From positions 1-22,925 of the IMG/VR virus record IMGVR_UViG_3300032326_000398: a stretch of 22,925 nt of DNA, one strand, 5' to 3'. The position numbers and the translations under genes were made by a program. This DNA comes from a virus. How positions within the stretch are numbered: the stretch's first letter is position 1; each line of letters starts with the position of its first letter. The notes beneath the pieces are model-generated. The model was given only the letters and a program-made list of their open reading frames with translations. It searched no databases and was not told the origin of the DNA. Of this stretch, positions 2,027 to 21,203 are shown in pieces.

Positions 2027-2581
2027 ATGAGCAACTTACAAACTTACATTAAGTATTACGAAGACAACGTCCGATTAGCAGCATCCTTTGCGAACAAAGG
2101 TGAAATGGGTATGGTACGTTCTACTATGAAAGAAGTGGTAGAAGGATTGTTAGATTTGATTTGGAAAACTGAAATCGGTGGTGAATCAAAGAAAAACGAT
2201 TTTATTGAATCGGTGAGTAAAAGTGGTTATACCTTAAAGTTTCAGGTAGATAGACACTTATACCATACGGATGGGACTATGGTAAAGATTGGTGAGTGTA
2301 AAGCATATTTAGATAGATGTTTTATGGAAAGGGCTAGTTCAGATTTTGGTAGAATCCTAAATGGTGTTCAATCAAAACCTACTACGTTTATCCTTGCATT
2401 AGAGAATAGTGTGAGCGATAAGGCATACGAATACTATATGGATGAAGGAAACATTCACAAAGTGTTTTATCTATGTGATGGGAAACGTTCATCTACAAAA
2501 CCAATATGGCGTAATCCACACTATAAACCAATCAACGAAACAAAGTTAAAAGATTTTGTTGATTTTATTAAAAATAATTAA
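2027..2581 (+). CDS. Candidate PD-(D/E)XK-fold nuclease (184 aa)
   Basis: The layout fits a small restriction-endonuclease-like fold. There is an N-terminal helical region with Glu38, then a strand with Asp75 (KFQVDRHLYHTDG), then a strand with Glu90-Cys-Lys92 (MVKIGECKAYLD), which is the (D/E)xK motif followed by a polar helix. A later hydrophobic strand (TTFILALEN) would complete the core. The metal-binding acid would be Asp75 or Asp82. At 184 residues the length suits a single-domain nuclease, perhaps acting on host DNA. It ends the operon of small genes. No methyltransferase partner lies nearby, which argues against a classical restriction system. The fold is inferred from the motif pattern only. 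Confidence 0.55.
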   Translation: MSNLQTYIKYYEDNVRLAASFANKGEMGMVRSTMKEVVEGLLDLIWKTEIGGESKKNDFIESVSKSGYTLKFQVDRHLYHTDGTMVKIGECKAYLDRCFMERASSDFGRILNGVQSKPTTFILALENSVSDKAYEYYMDEGNIHKVFYLCDGKRSSTKPIWRNPHYKPINETKLKDFVDFIKNN

Positions 2582-2589
2582 GAAAAGTG

Positions 2590-2620
2590 TAGGATATATC
2601 AAATATTTTAACTATATTTG
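2590..2620 (+). promoter_or_regulatory. Second-class promoter, copy 1
   Basis: TAGGATATATCAAATA (2590-2605), a 7-base spacer and TATATTTG (2613-2620, a perfect -7 box). There is no TTTG at the -33 position. The same 16-mer with one change and the same spacing occurs at 17782-17812. It drives the 2662 gene through a leader of about 35 bases. Confidence 0.6.
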
Positions 2621-2661
2621 TTTTATAAGTTGTTATAATAATAAAATCTAAAAACAAAAAT

Positions 2662-3042
2662 ATGAGCAAATCTTTAATGAGTACATTAACACGCCAAATG
2701 ACACTTGGATTTGGTAGACAGTTTGGTTATCGTGGAGCTAAACAATTGGAAAAAGAAATAGCTAAAAAAGTTATTGACCCAAATTCCAAATTCAGAAAAA
2801 CAATTCAAAAATTCGCATTGCCAGGTAATCCAAAATCTGCCATTCAAAAAATGTGGACATTAATTGATGGATTTATGGAAGAGTATGAAGAAAACAATTC
2901 ATTATTTCAATCAAACTATAAACAAGGTGATATTGATTTTATAGAAAAAAAATTAGATAGAATAAATCAAATGAATTTATCAGAAGATGAATCCGATAAT
3001 TTTCAACATTTACAAAAAATTTGGTTAAACCTAAAAAAATAG
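2662..3042 (+). CDS. Unknown helical basic protein (126 aa)
   Basis: I do not recognise this 126-residue protein. The N-terminal half is basic (TRQMTLGFGRQFGYRGAKQL, KKVIDPNSKFRKTIQKF) and the C-terminal half is acidic and helical (FMEEYEENNSLFQ, DFIEKKLDRINQM), with little beta prediction by eye. The basic half could bind nucleic acid or membrane. It is the first gene after a second-class promoter and is followed after two bases by the 3045 gene, so the two are probably co-transcribed. Confidence 0.7.
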   Translation: MSKSLMSTLTRQMTLGFGRQFGYRGAKQLEKEIAKKVIDPNSKFRKTIQKFALPGNPKSAIQKMWTLIDGFMEEYEENNSLFQSNYKQGDIDFIEKKLDRINQMNLSEDESDNFQHLQKIWLNLKK

Positions 3043-3044
3043 TT

Positions 3045-3566
3045 ATGAACAGATTAGATTTCTTAAAAAAACTTACTTTTGGTGGATTAGTAGGGTCAGC
3101 GGGTGTTGTTTGTGTAAATAAAATTAAAAATACAAACGATACTCCCATATCTTTACAAAATTCAATAGATGCTCCAGAAGAATTAAAATTCCACATCTTA
3201 AACGATAATGAGGTATTTCATCCAATTCATACGGATTACAAAGTAAATCGTAATGGCGAAGTTACTTATATAAATTATAGAAATAAAGTTAGAAAAGCTA
3301 CTTTGGGAATACATTCAATAACAGGACAATATCAGTATAGATTGAAAAACACAGTAGTAAATCCTTTTAGATTTGTATTTGAAGCATTTACCAAAACTAA
3401 ACTAAATCAAAGCTATATAGTAATACCAAAAGATGGAAATTACGAAAATTTGTGTATAGATAATATTAAATGCGTAAGAAAAAAAGATTATGATAAGTAT
3501 TCTAAATTTACTTTAACAAAAACTGCAATTAGAGATAAAGCCGGTCGTGTTTTGCGATGGGTATAA
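3045..3566 (+). CDS. HNH/NUMOD-like protein lacking the catalytic His, with an export-like N-terminus (173 aa)
   Basis: The start at 3045 is preferred over an ATG at 3021 because it follows the previous stop by two bases with the AGTTATG context common here. The N-terminus (MNRLDFLKKLTFGGLVGSAG) resembles a Bacteroidota Tat signal (NRRDFLKK) with the second Arg changed to Leu, or a membrane anchor. The remainder resembles phage HNH homing-type proteins: a NUMOD4-like start (YKVNRNGEVTYI, 65-76), an RFVFEAF helix, then IPKDGNYENLCIDNIKCV (127-144). That last part corresponds to the usual HHKDGNKLNNHIDNLEVV pattern, but the His pair is replaced by Ile-Pro, so nuclease activity is doubtful. A structural or DNA-binding remnant is possible. 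Confidence 0.6.
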   Translation: MNRLDFLKKLTFGGLVGSAGVVCVNKIKNTNDTPISLQNSIDAPEELKFHILNDNEVFHPIHTDYKVNRNGEVTYINYRNKVRKATLGIHSITGQYQYRLKNTVVNPFRFVFEAFTKTKLNQSYIVIPKDGNYENLCIDNIKCVRKKDYDKYSKFTLTKTAIRDKAGRVLRWV

Positions 3567-3575
3567 ATATAAGTT

Positions 3576-3815
3576 ATGAAAACAAAAGAAGAATTACAAA
3601 AGTACATTAGAGATGAAATTTCAAATCCTATGATTGGGCAACTAATTATGAATATGAAAGATGATGGGTGTCCGTATGAAACTATTATGGAAATGATGCA
3701 GCCCATAATTGATAATACCCCAAACGTTGAAAGAAAGATGGTAGAAGATGAAATGCGAAACGCCAGAATTAAAGAAGGTGAACGGATACTATCTACTATA
3801 AAAAACTTAAAATAA
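3576..3815 (+). CDS. Small unknown helical protein (79 aa)
   Basis: A 79-residue, highly charged, Met-rich helical protein (KTKEELQKYIRDEISNPMIG, then MEMMQPIIDNTPNVERKMVE) with no membrane segment and no family I can name. It follows the 3045 gene by nine bases with the AGTTATG start context. It is the last gene before the strong promoter at 3817-3847, which begins within its stop-codon region, so it probably ends this transcription unit. Confidence 0.68.
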   Translation: MKTKEELQKYIRDEISNPMIGQLIMNMKDDGCPYETIMEMMQPIIDNTPNVERKMVEDEMRNARIKEGERILSTIKNLK

Positions 3816-3816
3816 T

Positions 3817-3847
3817 TTTGATAATTAAAACTTTATTTGTATCTTTG
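3817..3847 (+). promoter_or_regulatory. Consensus Bacteroidota promoter
   Basis: TTTG (3817-3820), a 19-base spacer and TATCTTTG (3840-3847) form a perfect TTTG-N19-TAnnTTTG promoter, the best in the window. The expected start at about 3853-3855 gives a leader of about 120 bases before the 3974 gene, with the riboswitch-like element at its very 5' end. Confidence 0.85.
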
Positions 3848-3861
3848 TACAAGTTAAAACC

Positions 3862-3894
3862 GGTGGAGCAGAACCCACTTTAAAAAACGAAACG
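3862..3894 (+). promoter_or_regulatory. Candidate preQ1-I-type riboswitch aptamer
   Basis: GGTGG (3862-3866) can pair with CCACT (3875-3879, with one G-U) around the loop AGCAGAAC, and is followed by an A-rich tail TTAAAAAACGAAACG. The order is that of class I preQ1 aptamers: short GC-rich stem, loop with a GCAG...AAC pattern running into a C-rich 3' strand, then an A-rich tail with a C that can pair back to the loop (G3871 with C3888, possibly C3869 with G3889). It begins only a few bases after the expected transcript start. No covariation data are available, and the downstream gene is not a known queuosine gene, so this is a candidate only. Confidence 0.4.
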
Positions 3895-3917
3895 TTTATA
3901 ACAAAGCTATTATTTAA

Positions 3918-3946
3918 CAACTTCATAAACATATAAATCGAAGTTG
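3918..3946 (+). other. Leader hairpin before the ParB-domain gene
   Basis: CAACTTC (3918-3924) and GAAGTTG (3940-3946) form a perfect 7-bp stem with a 15-base A/T loop in the 5' leader. No T-run follows, so it is not an intrinsic terminator. It ends 27 bases before the start codon and could affect translation or RNA stability. An ATG-TAG minimal reading frame lies just after it (3950-3955). Confidence 0.5.
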
Positions 3947-3973
3947 AAAATGTAGCATAAAACACAAACAATT

Positions 3974-5317
3974 ATGAGTAATTTTATTGATGGCTTGGTA
4001 GCCGCAGAAATCGAACACGCGAAACAGACTCGCGATTTACAAATCAATGCACAGGCAAATGAACGAAGACGTGAGCATGGTGCAACATTTGAAAAGTATG
4101 TAGACACTTTATTAGTTAAAAGTGGTTTAGGATGTCAAAGAACACGTGTTAAGACATCAGATGGTGAGAAGATTAGTGACCATACTTTTGATAACAATTG
4201 GATGGAATCTACTACATTTTTTGATAAAAAACGTGTAAACGAATTTATTCTTAAAAAGAGAGTAATTGAAGAAGCAACTACAAATTTTTCAAAATTCTTT
4301 TTGTTTTATGAAAGAGAAATTACAAAACAAACACAGGTTCTTGTAGATAAGTTAGTAAATGCGGGTTGGATTGTATTATGTGGTAAAACCCAAATTGAAG
4401 CATTTATTAGTGCATTTGGAAAACACAATTCATTTTCTAAAAATGATATTATTCAAGTTGCCAAACCACAACTAATTGATATAAATTTACTAATTGAAAA
4501 CCCATTTAATAGAGAGCAAAATAAAAAGGGCGTAGAATCTATTGCAAAATCAATTGTAAACGAAGGATTTTTAACTTGTTTATACGTTGTTCCAAAAAGA
4601 AATAAAAAAGGTGTTATAATCGGATATATGTTATTTGAAGGTCATCACAGATTAAGTGCGGCTAAAATAGTAAAGTCTTGGGGTTTTTCATTAAATCAAT
4701 TACCCTGTGTAGTAGTTGATTGGTTATCTACCGATGATATGGAAGAGTTATCTAGATTATTAATTAAAATAAATGTAGAATACAGAAGTTGGAAATTGGG
4801 TGATTATATAAAACATCATTTTGATGTTGCTGAACTTTTAATTAAAGATAACAAAACCAATTCATCTCTTATTAATAAACAATACTCATATCAAACATTA
4901 TTAAATTGGATGAAAATTGGTAAACAATATGGATTTGGTGACAATGGATTGATTTATATATTAGGACCATTAACTGGTAGTGATAGGTGGTTAGACCAGG
5001 ATGTAATTAGAGGAGGTGAATATGTTGTAGAACAATCGGAAGTTGAAAATTACGCAACTCCATTTTTTAATGTAATGAAAGAATACATTAAAAAAGCAAA
5101 AGAAAACGTTGAATATAGAAAAGATGTTTATCAATTGTTTTGTTGTGAATTATACGAAAAGTTTAAAGCTGATAAAATATCATTAGATACCATAAGCAAT
5201 TATTTTTTAGCGTATAATATGTTACCGGCAGCTGATGTTCCTAATAAAAAATCCGATGTTAAGAACATATATCAAACATTGGATGGTATTATTAATCAAT
5301 TCAAAGGATTTAAATAG
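3974..5317 (+). CDS. ParB/sulfiredoxin-fold domain protein with nuclease-like N-terminal region (447 aa)
   Basis: Residues about 165-255 form a ParB-N domain: NPFNR (176-180), KGVESIAKSIVNEGFL, and the nucleotide-binding signature EGHHRLSAA (222-230). Residues 1-160 form a separate region with FEKYVDTLLVKSG, DHTFDNNWMEST (69-80) and a basic helix, resembling a restriction-type fold although the catalytic Lys of (D/E)xK is not obvious. Residues 255-447 are helical and unrecognised. The protein is much longer than typical ParB-like phage nucleases, and no ParA partner is nearby, so partitioning is unlikely. A DNA-binding, CTP-binding or nuclease role is more plausible. It has its own consensus promoter, a structured leader and a terminator, so it is a single-gene unit. 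Confidence 0.72.
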   Translation: MSNFIDGLVAAEIEHAKQTRDLQINAQANERRREHGATFEKYVDTLLVKSGLGCQRTRVKTSDGEKISDHTFDNNWMESTTFFDKKRVNEFILKKRVIEEATTNFSKFFLFYEREITKQTQVLVDKLVNAGWIVLCGKTQIEAFISAFGKHNSFSKNDIIQVAKPQLIDINLLIENPFNREQNKKGVESIAKSIVNEGFLTCLYVVPKRNKKGVIIGYMLFEGHHRLSAAKIVKSWGFSLNQLPCVVVDWLSTDDMEELSRLLIKINVEYRSWKLGDYIKHHFDVAELLIKDNKTNSSLINKQYSYQTLLNWMKIGKQYGFGDNGLIYILGPLTGSDRWLDQDVIRGGEYVVEQSEVENYATPFFNVMKEYIKKAKENVEYRKDVYQLFCCELYEKFKADKISLDTISNYFLAYNMLPAADVPNKKSDVKNIYQTLDGIINQFKGFK

Positions 5318-5340
5318 TAGAGTAAATTAAAATAATCATT

Positions 5341-5369
5341 AAAAGGCTTGGAAATTCCAAGCCTTTTTT
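5341..5369 (+). terminator. Intrinsic terminator after the ParB-domain gene
   Basis: AAAAGGCTTGGAA (5341-5353) is fully self-complementary to TTCCAAGCCTTTT (5355-5367) around one central A, and the T-run 5364-5369 follows. This is a strong stem-loop with a U-tract, 24 bases after the stop codon. Confidence 0.9.
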
Positions 5370-5378
5370 GTATATTTG
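5347..5378 (+). promoter_or_regulatory. Promoter overlapping the terminator stem
   Basis: TATATTTG (5371-5378) is a perfect -7 box starting one base after the terminator T-run. At 20-base spacing the -33 box is CTTG (5347-5350), inside the left arm of the terminator stem. It drives the 5396 nuclease gene. Confidence 0.65.
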
Positions 5379-5395
5379 TACTTAAAGAAAATATT

Positions 5396-6268
5396 ATGGC
5401 ATCACGCGTTTCATACTCACGATATTCTATGTGGTCAACTTGTCCACAACAATACAAGCTGAACTATATAGATAAGTTAGGCGTTTACTCTGGTAGTATT
5501 CACACAATCTTTGGTACTGCATTCCACGAAACCTTACAACACTATCTGGATATATTCTATAATAAAACCAAGAAGGAGGCAAACGAAATCAACTTACCAC
5601 AACTACTCAAAGAACGGCTTGTAGATACTTTTAAGAAGGAGCATGAAGGATTTGAGGAAGGTAAATTTGTATGTACCAAAGAAGAACTTATGGAGTTCTA
5701 TTCCGATGGAGTTATTTGTTTGGAATATTTCAAAAAGCATGGTGATGATTTCTTCACAAAGAAAGGGTGGGAGCTAGTAGGTATTGAATTACCACTAAAC
5801 GTTCAGTTAAAACCTAATGTAAGTATGTTGGGGTATTTGGATATAGTAATCCGCCACAAAGAGTTCAACCTATTAAAGATTATTGACTTCAAAACATCAA
5901 CACGCGGATGGTCAAAGGAACAAAAGGCGGACAAAACTAAACTAAACCAATTACTATTATACAAACATTATTATTCAGAGCAGTATGGGCATCCAATAGA
6001 TAGGATACAAGTTGAGTTCCAAATCATTAAACGTAAGATTAGTGAGAATACGGAATACACCATTCCACGTATTTCCAAATTAGTTCCCGCTAATGGTGGT
6101 CCATCGGTGGCTCGTGCAGTTAAAGATTTTATGAGGTTCGTAGATGAAGTATTTAACGAAGATGGTACTGATAACTTAAACGCAGATTATTCACCAAACC
6201 CTGGTGATAAAAATAAAAACTGCCGGTTTTGTGAGTTTAAGGATAGGTGTCCAGCATTTCAAAAATAA
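5396..6268 (+). CDS. Cas4/AddB-like PD-(D/E)XK exonuclease with Fe-S cluster motif (290 aa)
   Basis: The start at 5396 (TATTATG) is chosen because an upstream in-frame ATG at 5348 lies in the terminator and before the transcript start. Motifs in order are: SYSRYSMWSTCPQQY with Cys16; GTAFHE with His44; GYLD (146-149); the core IIDFKTS with Asp164 and Lys166; QLLLY (185-189) for the QxxxY motif; and C276-x2-C279-x5-C285 near the end. One N-terminal plus three C-terminal Cys, together with the RecB-type nuclease motifs, is the signature of the Cas4/AddB group, which binds a 4Fe-4S cluster and degrades or processes DNA ends. There is no helicase domain and no CRISPR locus. In phages such proteins act in replication or recombination or host DNA degradation; which applies here is open. 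Confidence 0.9.
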   Translation: MASRVSYSRYSMWSTCPQQYKLNYIDKLGVYSGSIHTIFGTAFHETLQHYLDIFYNKTKKEANEINLPQLLKERLVDTFKKEHEGFEEGKFVCTKEELMEFYSDGVICLEYFKKHGDDFFTKKGWELVGIELPLNVQLKPNVSMLGYLDIVIRHKEFNLLKIIDFKTSTRGWSKEQKADKTKLNQLLLYKHYYSEQYGHPIDRIQVEFQIIKRKISENTEYTIPRISKLVPANGGPSVARAVKDFMRFVDEVFNEDGTDNLNADYSPNPGDKNKNCRFCEFKDRCPAFQK

Positions 6269-6543: not shown

Positions 6544-7938
6544 ATGGCAAAAAAGAAAATTCTACTACTTTCTGATGACCTACGGATGGCAAGCGGTATT
6601 GCAAATATGTCAAAGCAATTCGTATTAGGTACATTGAAAGATTTCGATTGGGTACAAATCGGTGCAGCAGTAAAACATCCAGAAGAGGGTAAGATTATGG
6701 ATTTGTGTGATGATGTTCGTAAGAGAACGGGTATCGAAGACGCATATGTAAAAATCTATCCATCATCGGGATATGGTACTGCGGATTCATTACGGCAAAT
6801 CATCAATATGGAAAACCCAGATGCAATCCTACACTTTACAGACCCGAGGTATTGGATTTGGTTATACCAAATTGAGCACGAAATTCGTCAAAACATTCCA
6901 ATCCTATTCTATCACATTTGGGATGATTTACCAGACCCACAATACAACAGAGATTATTTGGAGAGTTGTGATTGGGTTGGTACTATATCAAGACAAACCT
7001 ATGGTATTACTCGTAGAGTATGGGGTATGGATGCTAAATCACGTTGGAAGCAACCTGCGGATTGGCAAGTAAAGTATGTACCACATGGTATTAACTCTAC
7101 GGATTATAAACCAACACAAATTGATGAAACATTCTACAAAGAGGTATTGGGTGATAAGAAATATGATTTCGTAGCATATTGGAACAACCGAAACATTCGT
7201 AGAAAGCAAGCAATTGATGTGATTGTTTCATTCAGAGATTTCGTAAATAATCTACCAGAAGAAAAACGTGATAAATGTGCGTTATTAATGCACACACAAA
7301 AGGTAGATGAAAATGGAACTGATTTACCAAAGGTAGTAGCAGATTTATGTCCAGGTATTAATGTTATATTTGATGATAGAAAGTGGAATGAGGCACAATT
7401 AAATCAACTATACAACATTGCAGATGTTACATTAAACATTTCATCGGCAGAAGGATTTGGATTGGCTAGTGCAGAAAGTATCGTAGCAGGAACACCAATC
7501 ATTGTAAACGTTACAGGTGGATTGCAAGACCAATGTGGTTTCCGTTGGAAAGATAGTGGGGTAGCATTAAACGAAGAAGATTATGTAGAGATTGGTTCTT
7601 TGCATGATTGGAGAAAGTTCGAAGATAAATTAACTTGGGGAGATTGGGTAATTCCAGTATGGAGTCGTTCTCGTTCTTATACAGGTTCACCACCAACGCC
7701 ATACATTATGGAAGACCACGTTGATAACTTTGAAGTAGCATCAGCGTTGCGTGAGTTATACAATATGAGTAGAGAAGAAAGAAAAGCATTAGGATTGAAA
7801 GGTAGAGAGTGGGCTTTAGGTGAAGGTGGATTATCATTAGAGAATATGTGTAAAACTATGGCAGATGGCATCAATGATGCATTGGAAAACTTTACACCGA
7901 GAAAGAAACACGAGATTTTTACATTAGATATTAAATAA
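6544..7938 (+). CDS. GT-B fold glycosyltransferase, GT4-like (464 aa)
   Basis: A two-domain glycosyltransferase. The N-terminal domain starts with KILLLSDDLRMASGIAN, where the Gly-containing loop binds acceptor. The C-terminal domain has NRNIRRKQAIDVIVSF (215-230), like the phosphate-contacting R/K motif, and SSAEGFGLASAES with Glu303 and Glu311 in the EX7E motif that binds the nucleotide sugar, followed by GTPIIVNVTGGLQDQ. The length suits a full GT-B enzyme. No membrane segment is seen, so it acts in the cytoplasm. It opens a block of six sugar- and methyl-transfer genes with very small gaps. Donor and acceptor are unknown; decoration of virion proteins or host surface glycans is inferred from context. 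Confidence 0.88.
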   Translation: MAKKKILLLSDDLRMASGIANMSKQFVLGTLKDFDWVQIGAAVKHPEEGKIMDLCDDVRKRTGIEDAYVKIYPSSGYGTADSLRQIINMENPDAILHFTDPRYWIWLYQIEHEIRQNIPILFYHIWDDLPDPQYNRDYLESCDWVGTISRQTYGITRRVWGMDAKSRWKQPADWQVKYVPHGINSTDYKPTQIDETFYKEVLGDKKYDFVAYWNNRNIRRKQAIDVIVSFRDFVNNLPEEKRDKCALLMHTQKVDENGTDLPKVVADLCPGINVIFDDRKWNEAQLNQLYNIADVTLNISSAEGFGLASAESIVAGTPIIVNVTGGLQDQCGFRWKDSGVALNEEDYVEIGSLHDWRKFEDKLTWGDWVIPVWSRSRSYTGSPPTPYIMEDHVDNFEVASALRELYNMSREERKALGLKGREWALGEGGLSLENMCKTMADGINDALENFTPRKKHEIFTLDIK

Positions 7939-7941
7939 GTT

Positions 7942-9207
7942 ATGGCAGAAGTTAAAAAACCTTTACTATTATTTCAAGGACCCGTATCTACAAGGAGTGG
8001 ATATGGGGACCATGCACGAGATTTGGTTCGTTCCCTAATTCAATTGGATAAATACGATGTTCGTATCATTTCAACTCGTTGGGGAGCAACTCCAATGACA
8101 GCACTAACTGCCGAAGATGGTGAAATCTTACAAAGAATTGTTGTTGGTGTAGATAGAAAACCAGATGTATATATCCAAGTTACAGTACCAAATGAGTTCC
8201 AACCTATGGGTACTTACAACATTGGTATTACGGCTGGTATTGAAACTACGGCTTGTTCGGTTGATTTCATACAAGGATGCAATCGTATGGATTTGATTAT
8301 TGTACCATCGGAGTTTTCTAAAGATGTATTGGTTAAAACTATTTATAGTGAAACTGATAGAAATACCCAAAGGGTAATCAAAGAACACAAATTAGAAAAA
8401 CCAATTGAGGTTTTGTTTGAAGGATACAATGAAAAGTTCTTTGGTAAGAAAGCAGAAATCAAAATGCCAGAATTGGATAAAGTAAAAGAAGATTTTGCTT
8501 ATCTATTTGTAGGGCATTGGTTGAAAGGTGAATTAGGACACGATAGAAAGGATGTGGGTATGATGATTAAATCATTCTGTCACGCCTTTAGAGGACAAAA
8601 GAACCCACCTGCACTTATTCTTAAAACTAGTTCAGCAGGTTTCTCTGTAATGGATAGAGAAGCAACTATGGGTAAATTAGAAGAGGTTACGGAAGAGTTT
8701 GGTAAAAACATCCCATCAATCTATTTACTACATGGTGAGTTAAGTGATGAAGAAATGAATGCACTATACCAACACCCAAAGGTAAAAGCTATGGTTTCAT
8801 TTACACATGGTGAAGGATTTGGTAGACCATTATTAGAGTTCAGTTTAACTGGTAAGCCAGTAGTTGCATCTAATTGGAGTGGACATTTAGATTTCTTAAA
8901 AAGTGGTGCAGTATTATTAGATGGTGAGTTGAAAGATGTACATCCATCTGCGCAAGACCAATTCATTTTAGAAGGAACAAAGTGGTTCTATGTAAATTAT
9001 ACGGGAGCAATTAAAGCATTTACTGATATTTATAAGGGATACGATAAGTACAAAATTGCATCACAACAATTAGGAAAGCAAAACCAACAAAACTTTGGTT
9101 TGGAAAAAATGACTAAATTGTTTGATACTATTTTAACTAAATATGTTCCAACAATAAAGCAGTTTATTCCATTAAACATTCCAAAGTTGACTAAAGTAGA
9201 TGAATAA
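7942..9207 (+). CDS. GT-B fold glycosyltransferase, GT4-like (421 aa)
   Basis: A second GT-B enzyme, distinct in sequence from the one before it. The N-terminal loop RSGYGDHARDLVRSL (19-33) is a typical acceptor-side motif. Conserved C-terminal parts include FVGHWLKGELGHDRKDVGMM, VSFTHGEGFGRPLLEFSLTG with Glu291 and Glu299 of the EX7E motif, then KPVVASNWSGHLDFL. It follows the 6544 gene by three bases with AGTTATG and overlaps the next gene by eight. Two adjacent GT-B enzymes suggest consecutive steps on one glycan. No membrane anchor is visible. Confidence 0.88.
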   Translation: MAEVKKPLLLFQGPVSTRSGYGDHARDLVRSLIQLDKYDVRIISTRWGATPMTALTAEDGEILQRIVVGVDRKPDVYIQVTVPNEFQPMGTYNIGITAGIETTACSVDFIQGCNRMDLIIVPSEFSKDVLVKTIYSETDRNTQRVIKEHKLEKPIEVLFEGYNEKFFGKKAEIKMPELDKVKEDFAYLFVGHWLKGELGHDRKDVGMMIKSFCHAFRGQKNPPALILKTSSAGFSVMDREATMGKLEEVTEEFGKNIPSIYLLHGELSDEEMNALYQHPKVKAMVSFTHGEGFGRPLLEFSLTGKPVVASNWSGHLDFLKSGAVLLDGELKDVHPSAQDQFILEGTKWFYVNYTGAIKAFTDIYKGYDKYKIASQQLGKQNQQNFGLEKMTKLFDTILTKYVPTIKQFIPLNIPKLTKVDE

Positions 9208-9733
9208 CCTATACTATTATATTCCATACTTTTATTTAGAAAGAAATACTACCAAAAATCAAATAAAAAATGGTGGGTTTTATAGATTGTATGGGTATGA
9301 TTATGTAGATGGAACAAAAAAAGCATATGGAGCTTCACAAACTCCACTCTTATTGGTATTGGGTTTTAACAGAGGTGATAAATTATTACATTGCATAAAG
9401 TTAAACTCAATACCTTTAAGGGTATTTAGTCAATTGATGAAAAAGATACAAGACCAATTGTATGTAGTTGCTTTGTTGAAAGATATACAAGATACAAACA
9501 CAGAATTAAGTGAAAACTTACAATATAGTAAAGAAGGTAAAGCAATAAAGATAGATAGAACAGGTTCTCAATTTTATCAAAAGCAAGTTAAAAATAATAC
9601 ACTACTTAAAAACTACGATTGTTATAGAACCTATAAAATACCTGGATTAAAACGATTGGGTGAAATATATTTCAACGTAGAAAAGTTGGGTAAGAAAATA
9701 GGTTTAACAATACAACCTGTTGGTAGACAATAA
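9200..9733 (+). CDS. Unknown phage protein (177 aa)
   Basis: A 177-residue protein of mixed alpha/beta character. The part GGFYRLYGYDY, DGTKKAYGASQTPLLLVLGF and KLLHCIKLNSIPLRVFSQLM recalls a family of unassigned T4-like phage proteins in which YxFxYDPK is followed by a PLxxxxG strand and an xGxNxxYLP turn; this comparison is from memory and weak. The gene overlaps the preceding glycosyltransferase by eight bases and sits inside the glycan cassette, yet has no transferase motif. It may be a virion or accessory protein that is a target or helper of the glycosylation, which is speculation. Confidence 0.65.
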   Translation: MNNLYYYIPYFYLERNTTKNQIKNGGFYRLYGYDYVDGTKKAYGASQTPLLLVLGFNRGDKLLHCIKLNSIPLRVFSQLMKKIQDQLYVVALLKDIQDTNTELSENLQYSKEGKAIKIDRTGSQFYQKQVKNNTLLKNYDCYRTYKIPGLKRLGEIYFNVEKLGKKIGLTIQPVGRQ

Positions 9734-9741
9734 AATAGATT

Positions 9742-10368
9742 ATGAAAATAAGTTACGCAGTTACAGTATCCAATGAAATAATTGAGATACAAAATCTTAT
9801 AGGGAGATTATCCGCCCACAAACGTGAGGAAGATGAAATCATAGTTCAATTTGATTCCCCCACCGCAACGATTCCAGTTGTTGAATATCTAAACAAATCA
9901 GTAATAGATGGTTCAATTCAACGTTTAGTATCCTATCCATTAAATGGTGATTTCGGACAATTCAAACAGCACTTAAATCAAAATTGTAGTGGAGATTGGA
10001 TTTTCCAATTAGATGCAGATGAAGATTTAGAACCAACACTCATAGAAAACCTACATACTATTTTAGAGGGAAACACAGAGATAGATATGTTTTGGCTACC
10101 ACGCATTAACATCGTAAATGGTTTAACACCAGAAGATATTACAAAGTGGGGATGGAACATAAGTGAGCAGGGTTGGGTAAATTATCCAGATGTACAAGGT
10201 AGATTGTACCGAAACAAACAAGGTATTTATTGGGCAGGTAAAGTGCATGAGAAAGTGCAAGGATACGAAAGTTATTCTATTTTCCCACCAGAAGAAATAT
10301 ATTCAATCAAACACATAAAGGATATAGAACGTCAAAGAAAACAAAACGATTTCTATGAGCAATTATAA
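9742..10368 (+). CDS. GT-A glycosyltransferase, family 2-like (208 aa)
   Basis: A compact family 2-type enzyme. The N-terminal beta strand and loop (MKISYAVTVSNEIIEIQNLI) fit the nucleotide-binding start, and CSGDWIFQLDADEDLEPTL (residues 82-100) carries the DAD form of the DxD metal-binding motif. Later YPDVQGRLYRNKQGIYWAGK and the HEKVQGYE segment match the acceptor side of GT2 enzymes that end in a VHE motif. At 208 residues it is near the minimal size for this fold. It begins eight bases after the unknown gene and overlaps the next by 14 bases, so it belongs to the cassette. Confidence 0.85.
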   Translation: MKISYAVTVSNEIIEIQNLIGRLSAHKREEDEIIVQFDSPTATIPVVEYLNKSVIDGSIQRLVSYPLNGDFGQFKQHLNQNCSGDWIFQLDADEDLEPTLIENLHTILEGNTEIDMFWLPRINIVNGLTPEDITKWGWNISEQGWVNYPDVQGRLYRNKQGIYWAGKVHEKVQGYESYSIFPPEEIYSIKHIKDIERQRKQNDFYEQL

Positions 10369-11023
10369 AGAAGTTTCAGTAGTTCTTACCGCATGTAATA
10401 GACCTGATTTGTTAGAGAAAACTTTGGATAGTTTCCATAAGTTTAACACACATCCAATCAAAAAGTTTATAGTGATTGATGATAGTGGTGTAGTTGGTTG
10501 TAATAATGACTTGATTAAAAAGTATCCACTAATAAAGTTTATAGATAATCCACAAAACATTGGACAAGTTCGTAGTATAGATAAAGCATACTCTATGATT
10601 ACAACTCCTTATGTATTCCATATGGAAGAAGATTGGGAGTTCTACAAAGAAGGATTCATTGAGGCTTGCTTGGAGGTTATTGATTTGGATGAAAAAATTA
10701 TATGTGTATGGACTAGAGACCAAAATGATATATTACATCCATTATTATCAGATGTCTATTTGACCGAAAGTGGTAATAAAATACAAAGAGTTAGTTGGGG
10801 ATTCGATGGGCATTGGCATGGGTTTACATTCAATCCATCATTAAAGAAAATGAAAGATTACCCAACGAATGGATACACTCCAATTGGTAGGGAATTAGAA
10901 TTGAGTAAGTATTATTATTCATTGGGATACTTTGCTATGGCATTCAAAGAAGGATATTGTAAACACGCTGGTTGGGGTAGACATGTAACGGATGTTGGTG
11001 AGGATGGACAACATCAAAAATAA
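10355..11023 (+). CDS. GT-A glycosyltransferase, family 2-like, with EED in place of DxD (222 aa)
   Basis: Starts with KEVSVVLTACNRPDLLEKTL, the classic family 2 opening, then KKFIVIDDSG and PQNIGQVRSIDKAY (67-79), which match the nucleotide-sugar domain. The metal motif position reads FHMEEDWEF (88-96), so Glu-Glu-Asp replaces DxD, a known variation in some GT2 members. The C-terminal half is rich in W, G and H (WGFDGHWHGFTFNP, HAGWGRHVTDVGEDG), probably the acceptor-binding part. It overlaps the previous gene by 14 bases. The substrate is unknown. Confidence 0.82.
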   Translation: MSNYKEVSVVLTACNRPDLLEKTLDSFHKFNTHPIKKFIVIDDSGVVGCNNDLIKKYPLIKFIDNPQNIGQVRSIDKAYSMITTPYVFHMEEDWEFYKEGFIEACLEVIDLDEKIICVWTRDQNDILHPLLSDVYLTESGNKIQRVSWGFDGHWHGFTFNPSLKKMKDYPTNGYTPIGRELELSKYYYSLGYFAMAFKEGYCKHAGWGRHVTDVGEDGQHQK

Positions 11024-11031
11024 TAAATAAA

Positions 11032-11667
11032 ATGACTATTGAGGAATGGGAAGATAAATTAAAAGAATCCATCGTAAAAAATGTAAAAACTATTATAGAA
11101 CATTTAAACGATGGTGATACATTTGTTGATATTGGAGCAAATACAGGCTTACTTACACAACTTGTAATAGATGGTATGAAATCAGATGGTAAACAACTGA
11201 AAAATGTTGTTATGTTTGAACCAATAGAAATGTACTACAACGAATGTGTAAATAAATTTGGAGATAAATCAAACTTTATTATAGAAAACCTTGCATTAAG
11301 CGATGATGATACCGATAAAACAATTTATGCATCGCAAGAAAACTTTGGATACAATAAAATATACAAACAAGGAATGGAAGTGCAACCGCACGATGAGTAT
11401 ATTATCAAATGTAAAACATTCAGTAATTGGATGTTAGATGGTAAAATTCATAAAATCAACTTTATAAAAATAGATGCAGAAGGACACGATGTTGAAATTA
11501 TATATGGTATGTTGGATTGGCTTCGAAGTAGTAATTTGAGACCTTATATTTTATTTGAACGTGGTTGGTATGAGGATAGAGAAACCGAATTGGCTAACAT
11601 ATTAAAAGATGATTTCAACTATATAGTAGAAGATTTAGGAACAGATTGGTTATTAAAACAAAAATAG
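11032..11667 (+). CDS. FkbM-type SAM-dependent methyltransferase (211 aa)
   Basis: SAM-binding motif I is FVDIGANTGLLTQ (31-43), motif II MFEP (61-64), and the FkbM hallmark FIKIDAEGHDVEIIYGM is at 144-160. FkbM enzymes methylate hydroxyl groups on sugars or other small molecules, and in phages and bacteria they often stand next to glycosyltransferases. That is the case here, with GT2 genes on both sides and gaps of 8 and 3 bases. It most likely caps or alters the glycan made by its neighbours. The length is normal for the family and no truncation is seen. Confidence 0.9.
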   Translation: MTIEEWEDKLKESIVKNVKTIIEHLNDGDTFVDIGANTGLLTQLVIDGMKSDGKQLKNVVMFEPIEMYYNECVNKFGDKSNFIIENLALSDDDTDKTIYASQENFGYNKIYKQGMEVQPHDEYIIKCKTFSNWMLDGKIHKINFIKIDAEGHDVEIIYGMLDWLRSSNLRPYILFERGWYEDRETELANILKDDFNYIVEDLGTDWLLKQK

Positions 11668-11670
11668 ATT

Positions 11671-12825
11671 ATGCTAACAATAGTTATACCAGCTTACAAT
11701 AATGTTGATTATCTTAAACTTTGTTATGAAAGTATAAGAGAAAGTAGTAAAGATGTAGAGTTAATTATATTCAACGATGGTAGTTCAGATGGTACTACTG
11801 AATGGTTAAATGGATTAACAGATTCTCATTTACAATATGAAATATTTGATGAAAGAATAGGTCATACCATACTATATGATAAAGGATTCCAGATGGCTAA
11901 AACCGAATATGTAGGGATACTACACGCGGATATGGTTGTTTCTAAAAATACCATACCATCAATCATAGATAATTTAGATAAAAACAAAATATTATCCCTT
12001 ACTTGTATAGAACCACCAATACATCCTGCGGGAGTTGAAAAGATTCAAATGGATTTTGGTATGTATCCACAAGATTTTAATATGGAATCATTCAATGATT
12101 TTTGTATTAATTTAGAAACCCAATCAAACGGTAAAACGCATGATTCATTATTTGCACCCTGGTTTGTAAATAAAGAAGAATACTTAAATAGAATCGGTTC
12201 GCATGATACTCTTTTTGCACCATATGGTTGGGAAGATTCTGACATATTTGTTCGCATGGTTTTAGCCGGATTTGATATTATTAGAATGCAAGATACATTC
12301 GTTTATCATTTTACACAAAGAGGGCATAAATGGAAAAACGGAAAAGTTGGAGAGTTTAATAATGATTATCAGCAACAGATGTTTAATATGCAACGTGAGT
12401 TTATCCGTAAATGGGGAACTGATATGTGTAGGGATAATGAGCATAGACCAGTTAGTATAATTAAATACGATATTGGTTTGGTTATGGATAATGCAAGGGA
12501 GGATGTAATTGGGTATTTAGAACCATATTTCTCAAACATATATTGTGATACTGAAATAGCAGTTGATTATCTGTCCAACGAACTACGTCTTACCAAAGTA
12601 GATATAAACAAAAAGTTTAGAGAAATTAATTCAGAACCCAAAAATGATGTAGTAGTTAAATGTAATTGTGATGATTTACTTGCAGACCAAAACAGATTTA
12701 GATTCCTAACTATACTACCTATGGTTATTGCAGATACAAATCAGTTGGGTAATTTCAAATACGATGTGTTTGATATATCGGTAAATAAACTAACGGAGTA
12801 TCAAAATTCATTAGTTAAACTTTAA
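11671..12825 (+). CDS. GT2 glycosyltransferase with galactosyltransferase-type WEDSD motif and extra C-terminal domain (384 aa)
   Basis: The N-terminus MLTIVIPAYNNVDYLKLCYE and FNDGSSDGT (34-42) are textbook family 2 motifs. The metal site reads GILHADMVV (82-90), and FAPYGWEDSDIFVRMVLAGF carries the WEDSD motif (187-191) found in polypeptide GalNAc- and galactosyltransferase-like GT2 enzymes, followed by HFTQRGHKW. From about residue 255 an additional 130-residue domain follows (KYDIGLVMDNAREDVIGYLE, KCNCDDLLADQNRF) that I do not recognise. It may bind the acceptor or a partner. The gene ends the cassette, three bases after the FkbM gene. Confidence 0.88.
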   Translation: MLTIVIPAYNNVDYLKLCYESIRESSKDVELIIFNDGSSDGTTEWLNGLTDSHLQYEIFDERIGHTILYDKGFQMAKTEYVGILHADMVVSKNTIPSIIDNLDKNKILSLTCIEPPIHPAGVEKIQMDFGMYPQDFNMESFNDFCINLETQSNGKTHDSLFAPWFVNKEEYLNRIGSHDTLFAPYGWEDSDIFVRMVLAGFDIIRMQDTFVYHFTQRGHKWKNGKVGEFNNDYQQQMFNMQREFIRKWGTDMCRDNEHRPVSIIKYDIGLVMDNAREDVIGYLEPYFSNIYCDTEIAVDYLSNELRLTKVDINKKFREINSEPKNDVVVKCNCDDLLADQNRFRFLTILPMVIADTNQLGNFKYDVFDISVNKLTEYQNSLVKL

Positions 12826-14496: not shown

Positions 14497-16371
14497 ATGG
14501 CAAATATATCTTCACAATTTAAGAGAGCATCGGAGCTATACCAAAGAGCAGTTCAGCAATACCAAGTAAAGCAAAAAGAACAACGTGCTTTGATTGACCA
14601 GTTTAAAGTTGGTGACCAAAATACAAAGGTTAAATTAAAACCACAACTAATTGCTTTACATCAAGAAATGCAACATCATCAAGAATTGGTAGATAGAGCA
14701 GAAGCAGCATTTGAAAAAGCATTGACAGGTGAGCCGGTTAATTTGGGTGAAGATACAATAGTAAAGAATAAAAAGACGGGTAATGTATATTCAGTAAAGA
14801 AAGCAAACCCAGCAATACATACAAAACCAACATCAAAAGATATAGCACAAGCTAAAGCTGATAAGGGTGGAGATGCAAAAACAGAACCTAAAGCAGATGG
14901 TATGGCAACCGTAAATGGTATTGCATCCACAACAGGTTTAAGAGCGCAAGCAGTAGCAGGTTGGGCAGATGAGAATGGTGTAAACCTTTCAAAAGTAGCA
15001 GATGATTTAAAATCCAAAAAGTTAAAACCTATGGATTTTATGACTGCAGTTGTTGGTAATCCTGGTAACAAATATGCAAAGGATATAATCTCAAAATATT
15101 CTCAAAAAGCAGAACCAACTAAAGGACCTGAATTAGATGTAGATAAACAATCACACATCAAAGATATTCCAAAAAAGTTCCGTAGTATGGTTTCTATGAA
15201 AATAGACCAATTAGCAAAAGCAGCAGCAGAAGCTAAAGCAAAAGGTGAGAAAGCACCAAACTTTAATCTATGTGATATTACCATTCCTGGTACTAACTTA
15301 TATTGTAAGGGAAACAAAGGCATTCCCCGTGAGGATATGCCACAATTCAAAGGATACGCAAAGCCAGGTTCAATAGCAGATAAGTTACCAAAAAACAACG
15401 ATGGCGAGGTAGATACAGAATCACAATTCAAAGTTCTATTAAAGAGAAATGGTGTAGCAGTATCAGAACCACAAGAAGTACCAGCAGACCAATTGAAAGC
15501 AACTCAAACTGAATTGGTTGGGGCAAAGGTAGCAGGTATGACTAAAGCATTGGAAACAGAACCTAATCATCCAAAGATTACTGCACCAATCTATGTATCA
15601 AATGATGGGTATGTATTAGATGGACACCATAGATGGGCAGCAGTTACATCTTCAGCAGTAGCAAGTGGAAAACCTGCTATGATGAATGTGAGAGTAATTG
15701 ATATGCCAATCAAAGATTTGGTAAAAATATCAAATGAATTTGCAGACCAAATAGGTATTCAACAAAAGAAAGCAGATGCAAATGCAGAAGCACCGAAGAA
15801 AGAAGTAACGGAAGTAACTGCAAACGATTGGCACTACAAAGCAATCATGTCAATTTGGGATAAAGGTGGCTCATTCACTCGTAAGAAATTAGGAACTATT
15901 ATTTGTAGAGACCCAAAAGCATCTCGTAGTGATATTGAAAAGGAATTAAGAGATACGGATTATAGTGAAGTTACCGATTTTACAGATAGATTAAGAATTG
16001 AGGGTATTATCAAAGAAGAAAAAGTTTATATTGATTATCTAAATAAGCAAAAAGGATTTAAGCAAGATAGAATTAAATTCAATTCATACGAAGAAGCCGT
16101 AAAATGGGCAAAAAAGAATTTTGAAAAGTTTAATTCAGATATGATTAAATATGAATCGGTAAACGAAAACGAAGATACTGTGGCTGATGAGAGTAGAATG
16201 GCTAGAAGTGGTATTAAAACTGCAATAGAATCTGCAAATAACATACAACAAATATTCAACGCAAAGGGAGAAGAGTTTGATGTACCAGCTTGGGTTCAAT
16301 CATATTTAGCATTAGCTAGTGATTACCTACATTCTATAAACGAATACTATAATGGTATTGAAAACAAATAA
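14497..16371 (+). CDS. Large modular ParB-domain protein, probably virion-associated (624 aa)
   Basis: Modules in order: a coiled-coil region (1-75, FKRASELYQRAVQQYQVKQK); an Ala/Lys-rich linker; a small helical module (138-202); a domain at about 215-425 with APIYVSNDGYVLDGHHRWAA (363-382), the ParB-like DGHHR signature common in phage head-associated proteins; a winged-helix-like stretch (443-515); and a C-terminal helical module VPAWVQSYLALASDYLHSIN. The last resembles repeats in structural proteins of large marine phages. The linker YESVNENED (552-560) resembles linkers in the 12866 protein. No signal peptide is seen. The fusion suggests a virion or injected protein acting on DNA; catalytic activity is uncertain. 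Confidence 0.72.
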   Translation: MANISSQFKRASELYQRAVQQYQVKQKEQRALIDQFKVGDQNTKVKLKPQLIALHQEMQHHQELVDRAEAAFEKALTGEPVNLGEDTIVKNKKTGNVYSVKKANPAIHTKPTSKDIAQAKADKGGDAKTEPKADGMATVNGIASTTGLRAQAVAGWADENGVNLSKVADDLKSKKLKPMDFMTAVVGNPGNKYAKDIISKYSQKAEPTKGPELDVDKQSHIKDIPKKFRSMVSMKIDQLAKAAAEAKAKGEKAPNFNLCDITIPGTNLYCKGNKGIPREDMPQFKGYAKPGSIADKLPKNNDGEVDTESQFKVLLKRNGVAVSEPQEVPADQLKATQTELVGAKVAGMTKALETEPNHPKITAPIYVSNDGYVLDGHHRWAAVTSSAVASGKPAMMNVRVIDMPIKDLVKISNEFADQIGIQQKKADANAEAPKKEVTEVTANDWHYKAIMSIWDKGGSFTRKKLGTIICRDPKASRSDIEKELRDTDYSEVTDFTDRLRIEGIIKEEKVYIDYLNKQKGFKQDRIKFNSYEEAVKWAKKNFEKFNSDMIKYESVNENEDTVADESRMARSGIKTAIESANNIQQIFNAKGEEFDVPAWVQSYLALASDYLHSINEYYNGIENK

Positions 16372-19431: not shown

Positions 19432-20040
19432 ATGAAAGTAACAAGTGAGTCAAATGATTTTTTAGTTATAGATGATTTCTATACAGAAGATGAGCAAATA
19501 AATATTTGGAAAGAATTAGATTTTCTAACATATGATAGAAAATTAATGCCACCAGAAGAAACTGGTACTGCACATGACCAAACTACCGGTGAAGCATTAA
19601 AGAAAAACTCCGCTTTATTTTTAGATAGATTATATGCAAGGCGTGAATTATCAAATATACTAAATATAAATAGAAAACTATTTTCACAAGAAATTATAGA
19701 TGAATTTAATGGTATGGATAATTGTTTTAAGTACATACACCATACAAACTATGATGCAACCTTAATAAGCTATTACGAAGAAAAAGATTACTATAAAGCA
19801 CATACAGATTCATCAATCCTAACTTACTTATATTGGTGTCATAAAGAACCTAAAAAGTTTGAAGGTGGTGATTTAATATTGCCAGAATTAGATGAAGGTA
19901 TAACTTACAAAAACAATAGATTGGTTATATTTCCATCTTGGAGATTGCATGAAGTAACACCAATTAAAATGATTGAAGAGGTAGAACCATATAGTGGATA
20001 CGGTAGATATTGTATAACCAATTTTGTATATATTAAATAA
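19432..20040 (+). CDS. 2OG-Fe(II) oxygenase, tandem paralog (202 aa)
   Basis: It aligns along its whole length with the 18819 product. His124, Asp126 (YKAHTDSSIL), His173 (WRLHEVTP) and Arg192 (YGRYCIT) are all kept, as are FEGGDL and NNRLVIFPS. Substrate-side loops differ: the region after residue 38 and the stretch before the last Arg are changed, suggesting a different target. The gene begins one base after the 18819 stop, and its stop overlaps the thyA start (TAATG). The pair probably arose by tandem duplication followed by divergence. Confidence 0.9.
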   Translation: MKVTSESNDFLVIDDFYTEDEQINIWKELDFLTYDRKLMPPEETGTAHDQTTGEALKKNSALFLDRLYARRELSNILNINRKLFSQEIIDEFNGMDNCFKYIHHTNYDATLISYYEEKDYYKAHTDSSILTYLYWCHKEPKKFEGGDLILPELDEGITYKNNRLVIFPSWRLHEVTPIKMIEEVEPYSGYGRYCITNFVYIK

Positions 20041-21203
20041 TGAACACAATAGATAGTAAATACCAAGCATTATTAGAAGATATTTTAGACAACGGAGTTG
20101 AAAAGCAGGATAGAACGGGTACAGGTACTATATCTGTATTCGGTAGACAAATACGCCATAAGATGTCACAAGGATTTCCATTACTAACCACAAAGAAAAT
20201 GGCGTGGAATGTTATGGTTACAGAACTCCTATGGTTTTTAAGAGGAGATACTAACATAAAATTCCTATTGGATTATGATTGCCACATTTGGGATGGTGAT
20301 GCATATAAGAACTATGTAAGTAAAGTTGAAGAATATACATCTACATTAAATGTTCCTAATGATATATCCGAATTTCAAGAAGTAATGGATTCGGTAGGAA
20401 ACCAAATAAAGAGTAGTGTATTATCAAAAGAAGAATTTATTAAACAAATCAAAACCAATAATGAGTTTGCAAAGAAATGGGGTGATTTAGGACCAATCTA
20501 TGGTAAGCAATGGAGACAATGGCAAGGTTGGATGGACATGAATGGTAATGAGAAAGGTTCATTGTGGTATGACCAAATCCTACAATTAGTTCATTCACTT
20601 AAAACAAATCCGGATAGTAGAAGATTGATGGTAAACGCTTGGAATGTAGCAGAGTTAAATCAAATGACATTACCACCTTGCCACTATGGATTCCAATTAT
20701 ATACAAAAGAGTTGAGTATAGATGAACGATTACATTTGGCATCTCAAAAATATGAAATGTTTGACCCATTTGATTTCCATACAGGAGGCCACGAAGAAAT
20801 AGATGAATTATATCCTGTACCTAAAAGAGCATTATCTTTAATGTGGAATCAACGAAGTGTAGATACATTTTTAGGATTACCATTTAACATCGCCTCATAT
20901 GCATTACTATTGGAGATTATTGCAAAGGAAGTTAATATGATACCCGAAGATTTGATTGGTAATTTGGGAGATGTGCATTTATATAAAAATCACATCGAAC
21001 AAGCGAAGGAACAGATTAAAAGAGAACCATACGATTTACCAACAATCCAAATCACCGAAAGGAACTGGTATCAGCACGAAAAAGTAAAAGAACATTTAGG
21101 ACCAAAAACATTTAACGATAAAATATTATCATATAGACCTGATTGTTTTGAACTAATAGGATATGAATCGCATCCAAAAATTAAAGCACCTTTAAGTAAT
21201 TAA
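20040..21203 (+). CDS. thyA: Thymidylate synthase, enlarged by insertions (387 aa)
   Basis: Converts dUMP and 5,10-methylene-tetrahydrofolate to dTMP and dihydrofolate in the cytoplasm. Key residues are present: Arg25 (DRTGTGT), Glu62 (TELLWFLRGDTNI), Cys214 as nucleophile (LPPCHYGFQLY), Arg272-Ser273 and Asp275 (NQRSVD), Asn283 (GLPFNIASYAL), and His313/Tyr315 (GDVHLYKNH). Asn283 keeps the dUMP-type choice rather than the dCMP hydroxymethylase Asp. The protein is about 120 residues longer than the Escherichia coli enzyme. One insertion lies between IWD (85) and GDLGPIYG (148), at the place of the known Lactobacillus-type insert; a second of about 40 residues lies between QLY (221) and LSLMWNQRS. 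It supplies dTMP for AT-rich phage DNA; hydroxymethylation of dUMP cannot be excluded. Confidence 0.95.
   Translation: MNTIDSKYQALLEDILDNGVEKQDRTGTGTISVFGRQIRHKMSQGFPLLTTKKMAWNVMVTELLWFLRGDTNIKFLLDYDCHIWDGDAYKNYVSKVEEYTSTLNVPNDISEFQEVMDSVGNQIKSSVLSKEEFIKQIKTNNEFAKKWGDLGPIYGKQWRQWQGWMDMNGNEKGSLWYDQILQLVHSLKTNPDSRRLMVNAWNVAELNQMTLPPCHYGFQLYTKELSIDERLHLASQKYEMFDPFDFHTGGHEEIDELYPVPKRALSLMWNQRSVDTFLGLPFNIASYALLLEIIAKEVNMIPEDLIGNLGDVHLYKNHIEQAKEQIKREPYDLPTIQITERNWYQHEKVKEHLGPKTFNDKILSYRPDCFELIGYESHPKIKAPLSN

Follow-up and report, generated by a model that had tools for sequence, protein, structure and literature searches.

DUF805 (RF03081) and DUF805b (RF02914) are orphan RNA motifs, already present in Rfam, where they are typed as cis-regulatory and placed in a common clan (CL00115). 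A 2017 survey reportedly introduced both of them. In the literature that we searched, we found no paper on DUF805 or DUF805b as RNA motifs or on their function, and nothing that ties a DUF805 RNA to a change in expression. The second system with which the present leader invites comparison is the class I preQ1 riboswitch (RF00522), in which a strictly conserved cytosine lies just 5' of the P1 3' strand (PMC11625349). The leader precedes a ParB-like gene in a 22,925-nt stretch of viral DNA, analyzed here at its full length and referred to as the window.

Scanning bacterial genomes with the DUF805 core pattern recovered at least 118 loci, and nearly all of the matches listed belong to Bacteroidota; 35 of 198 Bacteroidota genomes carry a match, with up to six per genome. 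Among the bacterial matches listed, the family takes the form GUGGAG-nY-CAGAA-n-CCAC-UU-AAAAAACGGGGCG..CCGAAAAGCC..GAGUAGGA, and the median distance from motif start to start codon is 79 nt (interquartile range, 76 to 83). Across 74 aligned leaders, the window included, covariation links loop column 14 to tail column 38 (C goes with G and U with A; Fisher P = 1e-5) and, in the second module, column 78 to column 96 (P = 8e-4); both P values ignore relatedness among the leaders. The whole structure surpassed 500 of 500 shuffles and all slid controls, both in cells paired and in the covariation score. Therefore, the family looks like two successive H-type pseudoknots, module A followed by module B, the latter by itself corresponding to DUF805b. 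The comparison of homologous leaders proposed in a preliminary description of this DNA thus yields loop-tail covariation in the matching bacterial family. The 87 proteins encoded downstream of family leaders hit 48 Pfam families, none of which is matched by more than four members. Clustered DUF805 copies were also considered as cassette arrays, and the six regions examined showed no array architecture. A second conserved stretch, roughly AAAGCCAACGGGCTGACCACCCAAnGTGACAAAA, stands just upstream of the DUF805 RNA in L137, L169, L193, L204, L211, and L226.

In Bacteroidota, the -33/-7 promoter consensus is TTTG/TAnnTTTG (PMC6847099), and the -7 box spans positions -12 to -5 (PMC9723704). The preliminary description had placed a strong promoter in front of a ParB-domain gene, with a leader of 120 bases that begins with a short stem and a loop, followed by an A-rich tail. 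Each of these elements is found (Table 1). Compared with the published consensus, the promoter is of the Bacteroidota kind, not sigma-70, and fits the -33/-7 elements; with the box at -12 to -5, transcription is predicted to start near position 3852, giving a leader of approximately 122 nt. The first structure of the leader reads GUGG-AGCAGAAC-CCAC-UUUAAAAAACG, that is, a (G)GUGG/CCAC(U) stem, an 8-base loop, and an A-rich tail with CG at its end. The 7-bp hairpin that was described as separate is present (3918-3924/3940-3946), but it caps a longer hairpin. Folding of the 122-nt leader is better than that of shuffled sequences (z = -3.5); the signal is stronger still for the stretch with the long hairpin. 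A weak predicted hairpin overlapping the tail could, if formed, compete for the module A pseudoknot.

Table 1. Features of the leader, its promoter, and the neighboring genes, in window coordinates
Feature	Positions	Strand	Description	Support
Bacteroidota-type promoter	3817-3847	+	TTTG 3817-3820, 19-nt spacing, -7 box TATCTTTG 3840-3847	
DUF805 module A	3863-3889	+	Stem GUGG 3863-3866/CCAC 3875-3878, loop 3867-3874, tail ending C3888 G3889	
Weak hairpin	3885-3897	+	AAACG/CGUUU	Predicted, -1.5 kcal/mol, z = -1.2
Long hairpin	3906-3956	+	GCUAU..GUAGC, capped by the 7-bp CAACUUC/GAAGUUG stem	Fold of 3900-3973, z = -5.4
Cargo gene	3974-5317	+	447 aa, ParB-like domain at residues ~155-268	PHROG ParB-like families, best E 1.6e-9
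PD-(D/E)XK exonuclease	5396-6268	+	Conserved flank of the variable locus	Pfam and PHROG; 91-94% identical in phage relatives

The best Rfam match of the leader is DUF805 RNA (RF03081) at positions 3858-3906, with 25 bits, below the gathering score of 51.1 (E = 0.0075 for 161 nt searched against all Rfam families; E = 2.5e-4 for this single family searched over the entire window). Since RF03081 matches of 20 to 24 bits also occur in the phage relatives L286-L288, in sequence without the motif, the bit score by itself proves nothing; for lack of a visible motif, those matches were taken to be false. The assignment to DUF805 does not rest on this score. The 27 nt of module A are identical (27/27) to those of the bacterial 5' UTR loci L155, L160, L182, L213, and L218, mostly from Flavobacterium; a search for the motif pattern gave one hit in the window and none in 100 shuffles. 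Like the bacterial RNAs, the window has the GUGGAG-CAGAA-CCAC-UU-AAAAAACG module, in leader position and in a Bacteroidota setting, and its short-loop form is the one found in Flavobacterium. Unlike them, it sits in a phage, scores below the cut-off, places the start codon 111 nt instead of about 79 nt from the motif start, and has no recognizable 3' module GGGGCG..CCGAAAAGCC..GAGUAGGA. In positions 3890-3973, neither the second hairpin nor the GAGUAGGA tail of module B could be recognized, and the long hairpin, unrelated in sequence, occupies their place. DUF805b gave no covariance-model match in the window; it consists of module B alone, whereas the window has module A alone. Leaders with only module A are found in bacteria too (e.g., L180, L182, L187, and L214). 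Against named phages, the 46-nt leader core gave only partial and insignificant matches (best E = 0.8). We consider it very probable that the window leader is a DUF805-clan member carried by a phage in shortened form. By promoter type and position, it is the 5' leader of a protein gene behind a Bacteroidota-type promoter, and we infer a Bacteroidota host for the phage.

By analogy with the family, the window copy would close its pseudoknot through the pairs C3869-G3889 and G3871-C3888. A simple energy model placed the pseudoknot no better than shuffles, both in the window and in the related leader of the viral contig L341.

This contig, found only through the leader pattern in a relaxed scan of viral contigs, links the leader to its gene. 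From position 3861, the two leaders share 28 of 29 nt (CGGTGGAGCAGAxCCCACTTTAAAAAACG), the remainder having diverged, and the L341 copy scores 33.2 bits for RF03081 (E = 9.1e-5). Approximately 0.6 kb downstream, on the same strand and after one extra gene of 162 aa, L341 encodes a homolog of the 447-aa cargo protein with 70% identity. The strict long pattern had no match in viral contigs, and the matches of a loose pattern, lying inside other sequence, were ruled out as chance. The exonuclease homolog of L341 lies approximately 9 kb from its ParB-like homolog; hence, the neighborhood differs from that in the window. The cargo protein itself has no Pfam match, and its structure model (pLDDT 41) is too poor for use. 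Searching with its single sequence returned no relatives, either in viral contigs or in phage genomes. When the two sequences were aligned and used as query, L341 was the only relative in viral contigs, and 395 Bacteroidota genomes gave one weak partial match.

The cargo gene belongs to a variable locus (2027-6268) between a gene of 184 aa and the exonuclease, in which the cargo differs in nearly every group of phage relatives (contigs of up to 194.9 kb). The 184-aa flank gene is 94 to 99% identical in 14 relatives, and most relatives have one cargo gene between or beside the flanks. A ParB-like cargo is found in the window and in L242 and L244, the latter two being so labeled from a weak match, of short length, with the window protein (E = 0.002). 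L240 and L247 carry a related pair of proteins of about 600 aa, L251 a 563-aa protein, and L249 a GHKL-ATPase-like protein placed one gene earlier; L246 has no cargo gene at the locus, and the window has three further small genes ahead of the promoter. None of the cargo proteins matched a PADLOC defense model. The promoter is common to the window, L240, and L251 groups, with 90 to 92% identity over window positions 3809-3859, and L247 shares a shorter part of it. DNA homology runs through this promoter to position 3859 and stops where the leader structure begins. Behind the homologous promoter, L251-L254 carry a DUF805b RNA (44.5 bits, above the cut-off of 35.6), and the leaders of L240 and L247 gave no convincing family match in Rfam. 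With a shared promoter, homology that ends at the leader, and leaders and cargoes that differ, leader and cargo look like one exchangeable unit, which appears to have been swapped between phages. In a shuffle test of the cargo leaders, the pseudoknot of L240 was strong (0 of 200 shuffles), that of L251 marginal, and that of L247 not above shuffles; since L341 and the window did not exceed shuffles either, we make no claim that all cargo leaders are pseudoknots.

Two further observations concern the surroundings. At 5340-5380, a terminator-like hairpin runs straight into the exonuclease promoter (AGGCTTGGAAATTCCAAGCCTTTTTTTGTATATTTG), and relatives show similar arrangements. Elsewhere in the window (6544-12825, 14497-16371, and 19432-21203) is a possible DNA hypermodification set, made up of three glycosyltransferase-like genes and genes for a methyltransferase, a thymidylate synthase, a 2OG-Fe(II) oxygenase, and a second ParB-like protein.

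The reading that best accounts for this locus, and which we regard as probable, is that of an interchangeable unit of DUF805-clan leader and cargo gene, probably tuning translation or stability of the mRNA. We base it on the identity with a bacterial family, the covariation within that family, the linkage of leader and gene in two phages, and the exchange at the locus. The leader would carry module A, as a 5'-terminal H-type pseudoknot, without module B, and would form with the cargo an exchangeable unit behind the promoter common to the related phages. Module A would most likely fold as soon as it is transcribed and, from its place at the 5' end of the cargo mRNA, may then set how well that mRNA is translated or how stable it is. 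Such a module would act in cis on the cargo mRNA, through translation, stability, or a bound partner. For a mechanism through translation or stability, we put the chances at about even.

A bound partner could be a small molecule, and a ligand other than preQ1 is possible for module A. Pseudoknots that are compact, strongly conserved, and set immediately ahead of start codons at a constant distance, with downstream genes as diverse as a broad signal might control, would fit if DUF805-clan RNAs sensed a metabolite or second messenger of the host and module A served the phage as the aptamer. However, there is no known ligand, the downstream genes share no pathway, most module A residues are too invariant to show a ligand site, and no alternative expression platform was found; we therefore hold such a riboswitch to be unlikely.

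The partner could instead be a protein, of host or phage, with the leader serving autogenous control by the cargo or binding a global RNA-binding protein. In favor of this are the 5'-terminal pseudoknot in a phage leader linked to one gene in two phages, and the precedent of T4 gene 32, whose leader pseudoknot is bound by the gene's own protein. On the other hand, many unrelated bacterial genes have module A in front of them, which speaks against the ParB-like protein exerting autogenous control, and we judge a protein-binding site improbable.

The preliminary description had proposed a class I preQ1 riboswitch, in which the stem-loop and A-rich tail would bind preQ1 and control the ParB-like gene. 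Of this proposal, the arrangement survives in part: the H-type topology is shared with preQ1-I and loop-tail covariation is found in the family, but the preQ1 recognition site is missing. The window comes closest in its A-rich tail with a C and in its loop, which ends in AC before the P1 3' strand, as in type II (PMC11625349), with C3874 at the position of the specificity cytosine. That cytosine is not conserved in the family: of 73 rows, 35 have C before the P1 3' strand, 34 have A, and U and G occur twice each. The L341 sister leader ends in CC. The first loop base is A in 72 of 73 rows. The RF00522 covariance model found nothing at the gathering threshold in the window, in a search that recovered the Bacillus subtilis preQ1-I control, and nothing when the leader was searched by itself up to E = 10; the nearest family is DUF805. 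Nor do the genes point to queuosine, since the window gene is ParB-like and no queuosine gene is among the best 25 of the 48 families downstream of the bacterial leaders. Bacteroidota mRNAs lack a Shine-Dalgarno sequence, and structure and A-rich context tune their initiation (PMC6847099), so that a switch that masks the Shine-Dalgarno sequence, the usual preQ1 sort, is not expected. Altogether, a preQ1 riboswitch is highly unlikely. That an AT-rich leader merely happens to look like module A is scarcely credible, since the sub-threshold score and the similar scores in unrelated sequence of phage relatives are outweighed by the full identity to bacterial leaders, the lack of the pattern in shuffles, and the recurrence of leader and gene together in L341.

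Returning to the exchangeable unit of DUF805-clan leader and cargo, what is new is the occurrence of module A by itself in phages, the tie between this form and a cargo gene, and an apparent module swap at one locus, a phage site where leader RNA and gene appear to be exchanged jointly. Single phage modules split the DUF805 motif into separately testable parts and supply small natural constructs; this dissection builds on one cargo gene being found in two phages and on different modules standing at one locus. A wider proposal, which we offer tentatively and hold to be rather doubtful, is that DUF805-clan RNAs are modular, with two H-type pseudoknots working jointly or singly, and that Bacteroidota phages place single modules, as portable regulatory heads, behind a fixed promoter and exchange them along with accessory cargo genes. 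If so, the cargo would respond to the host signal of the bacterial DUF805 regulon.

Other viral contigs carry related or comparable leaders. A DUF805-like RNA is present in L344, L347, L350, L354, L357, L360, and L361, with AUGG/CCAU in place of GUGG/CCAC as the first stem, a compensatory change. A different short leader, around GTGGRCKTACCACTTRAAAAAACG, stands close before the start codon in five viral contigs (L313:7565, L314:3218(-), L318:3228, L320:4947(-), and L331:3975(-)).
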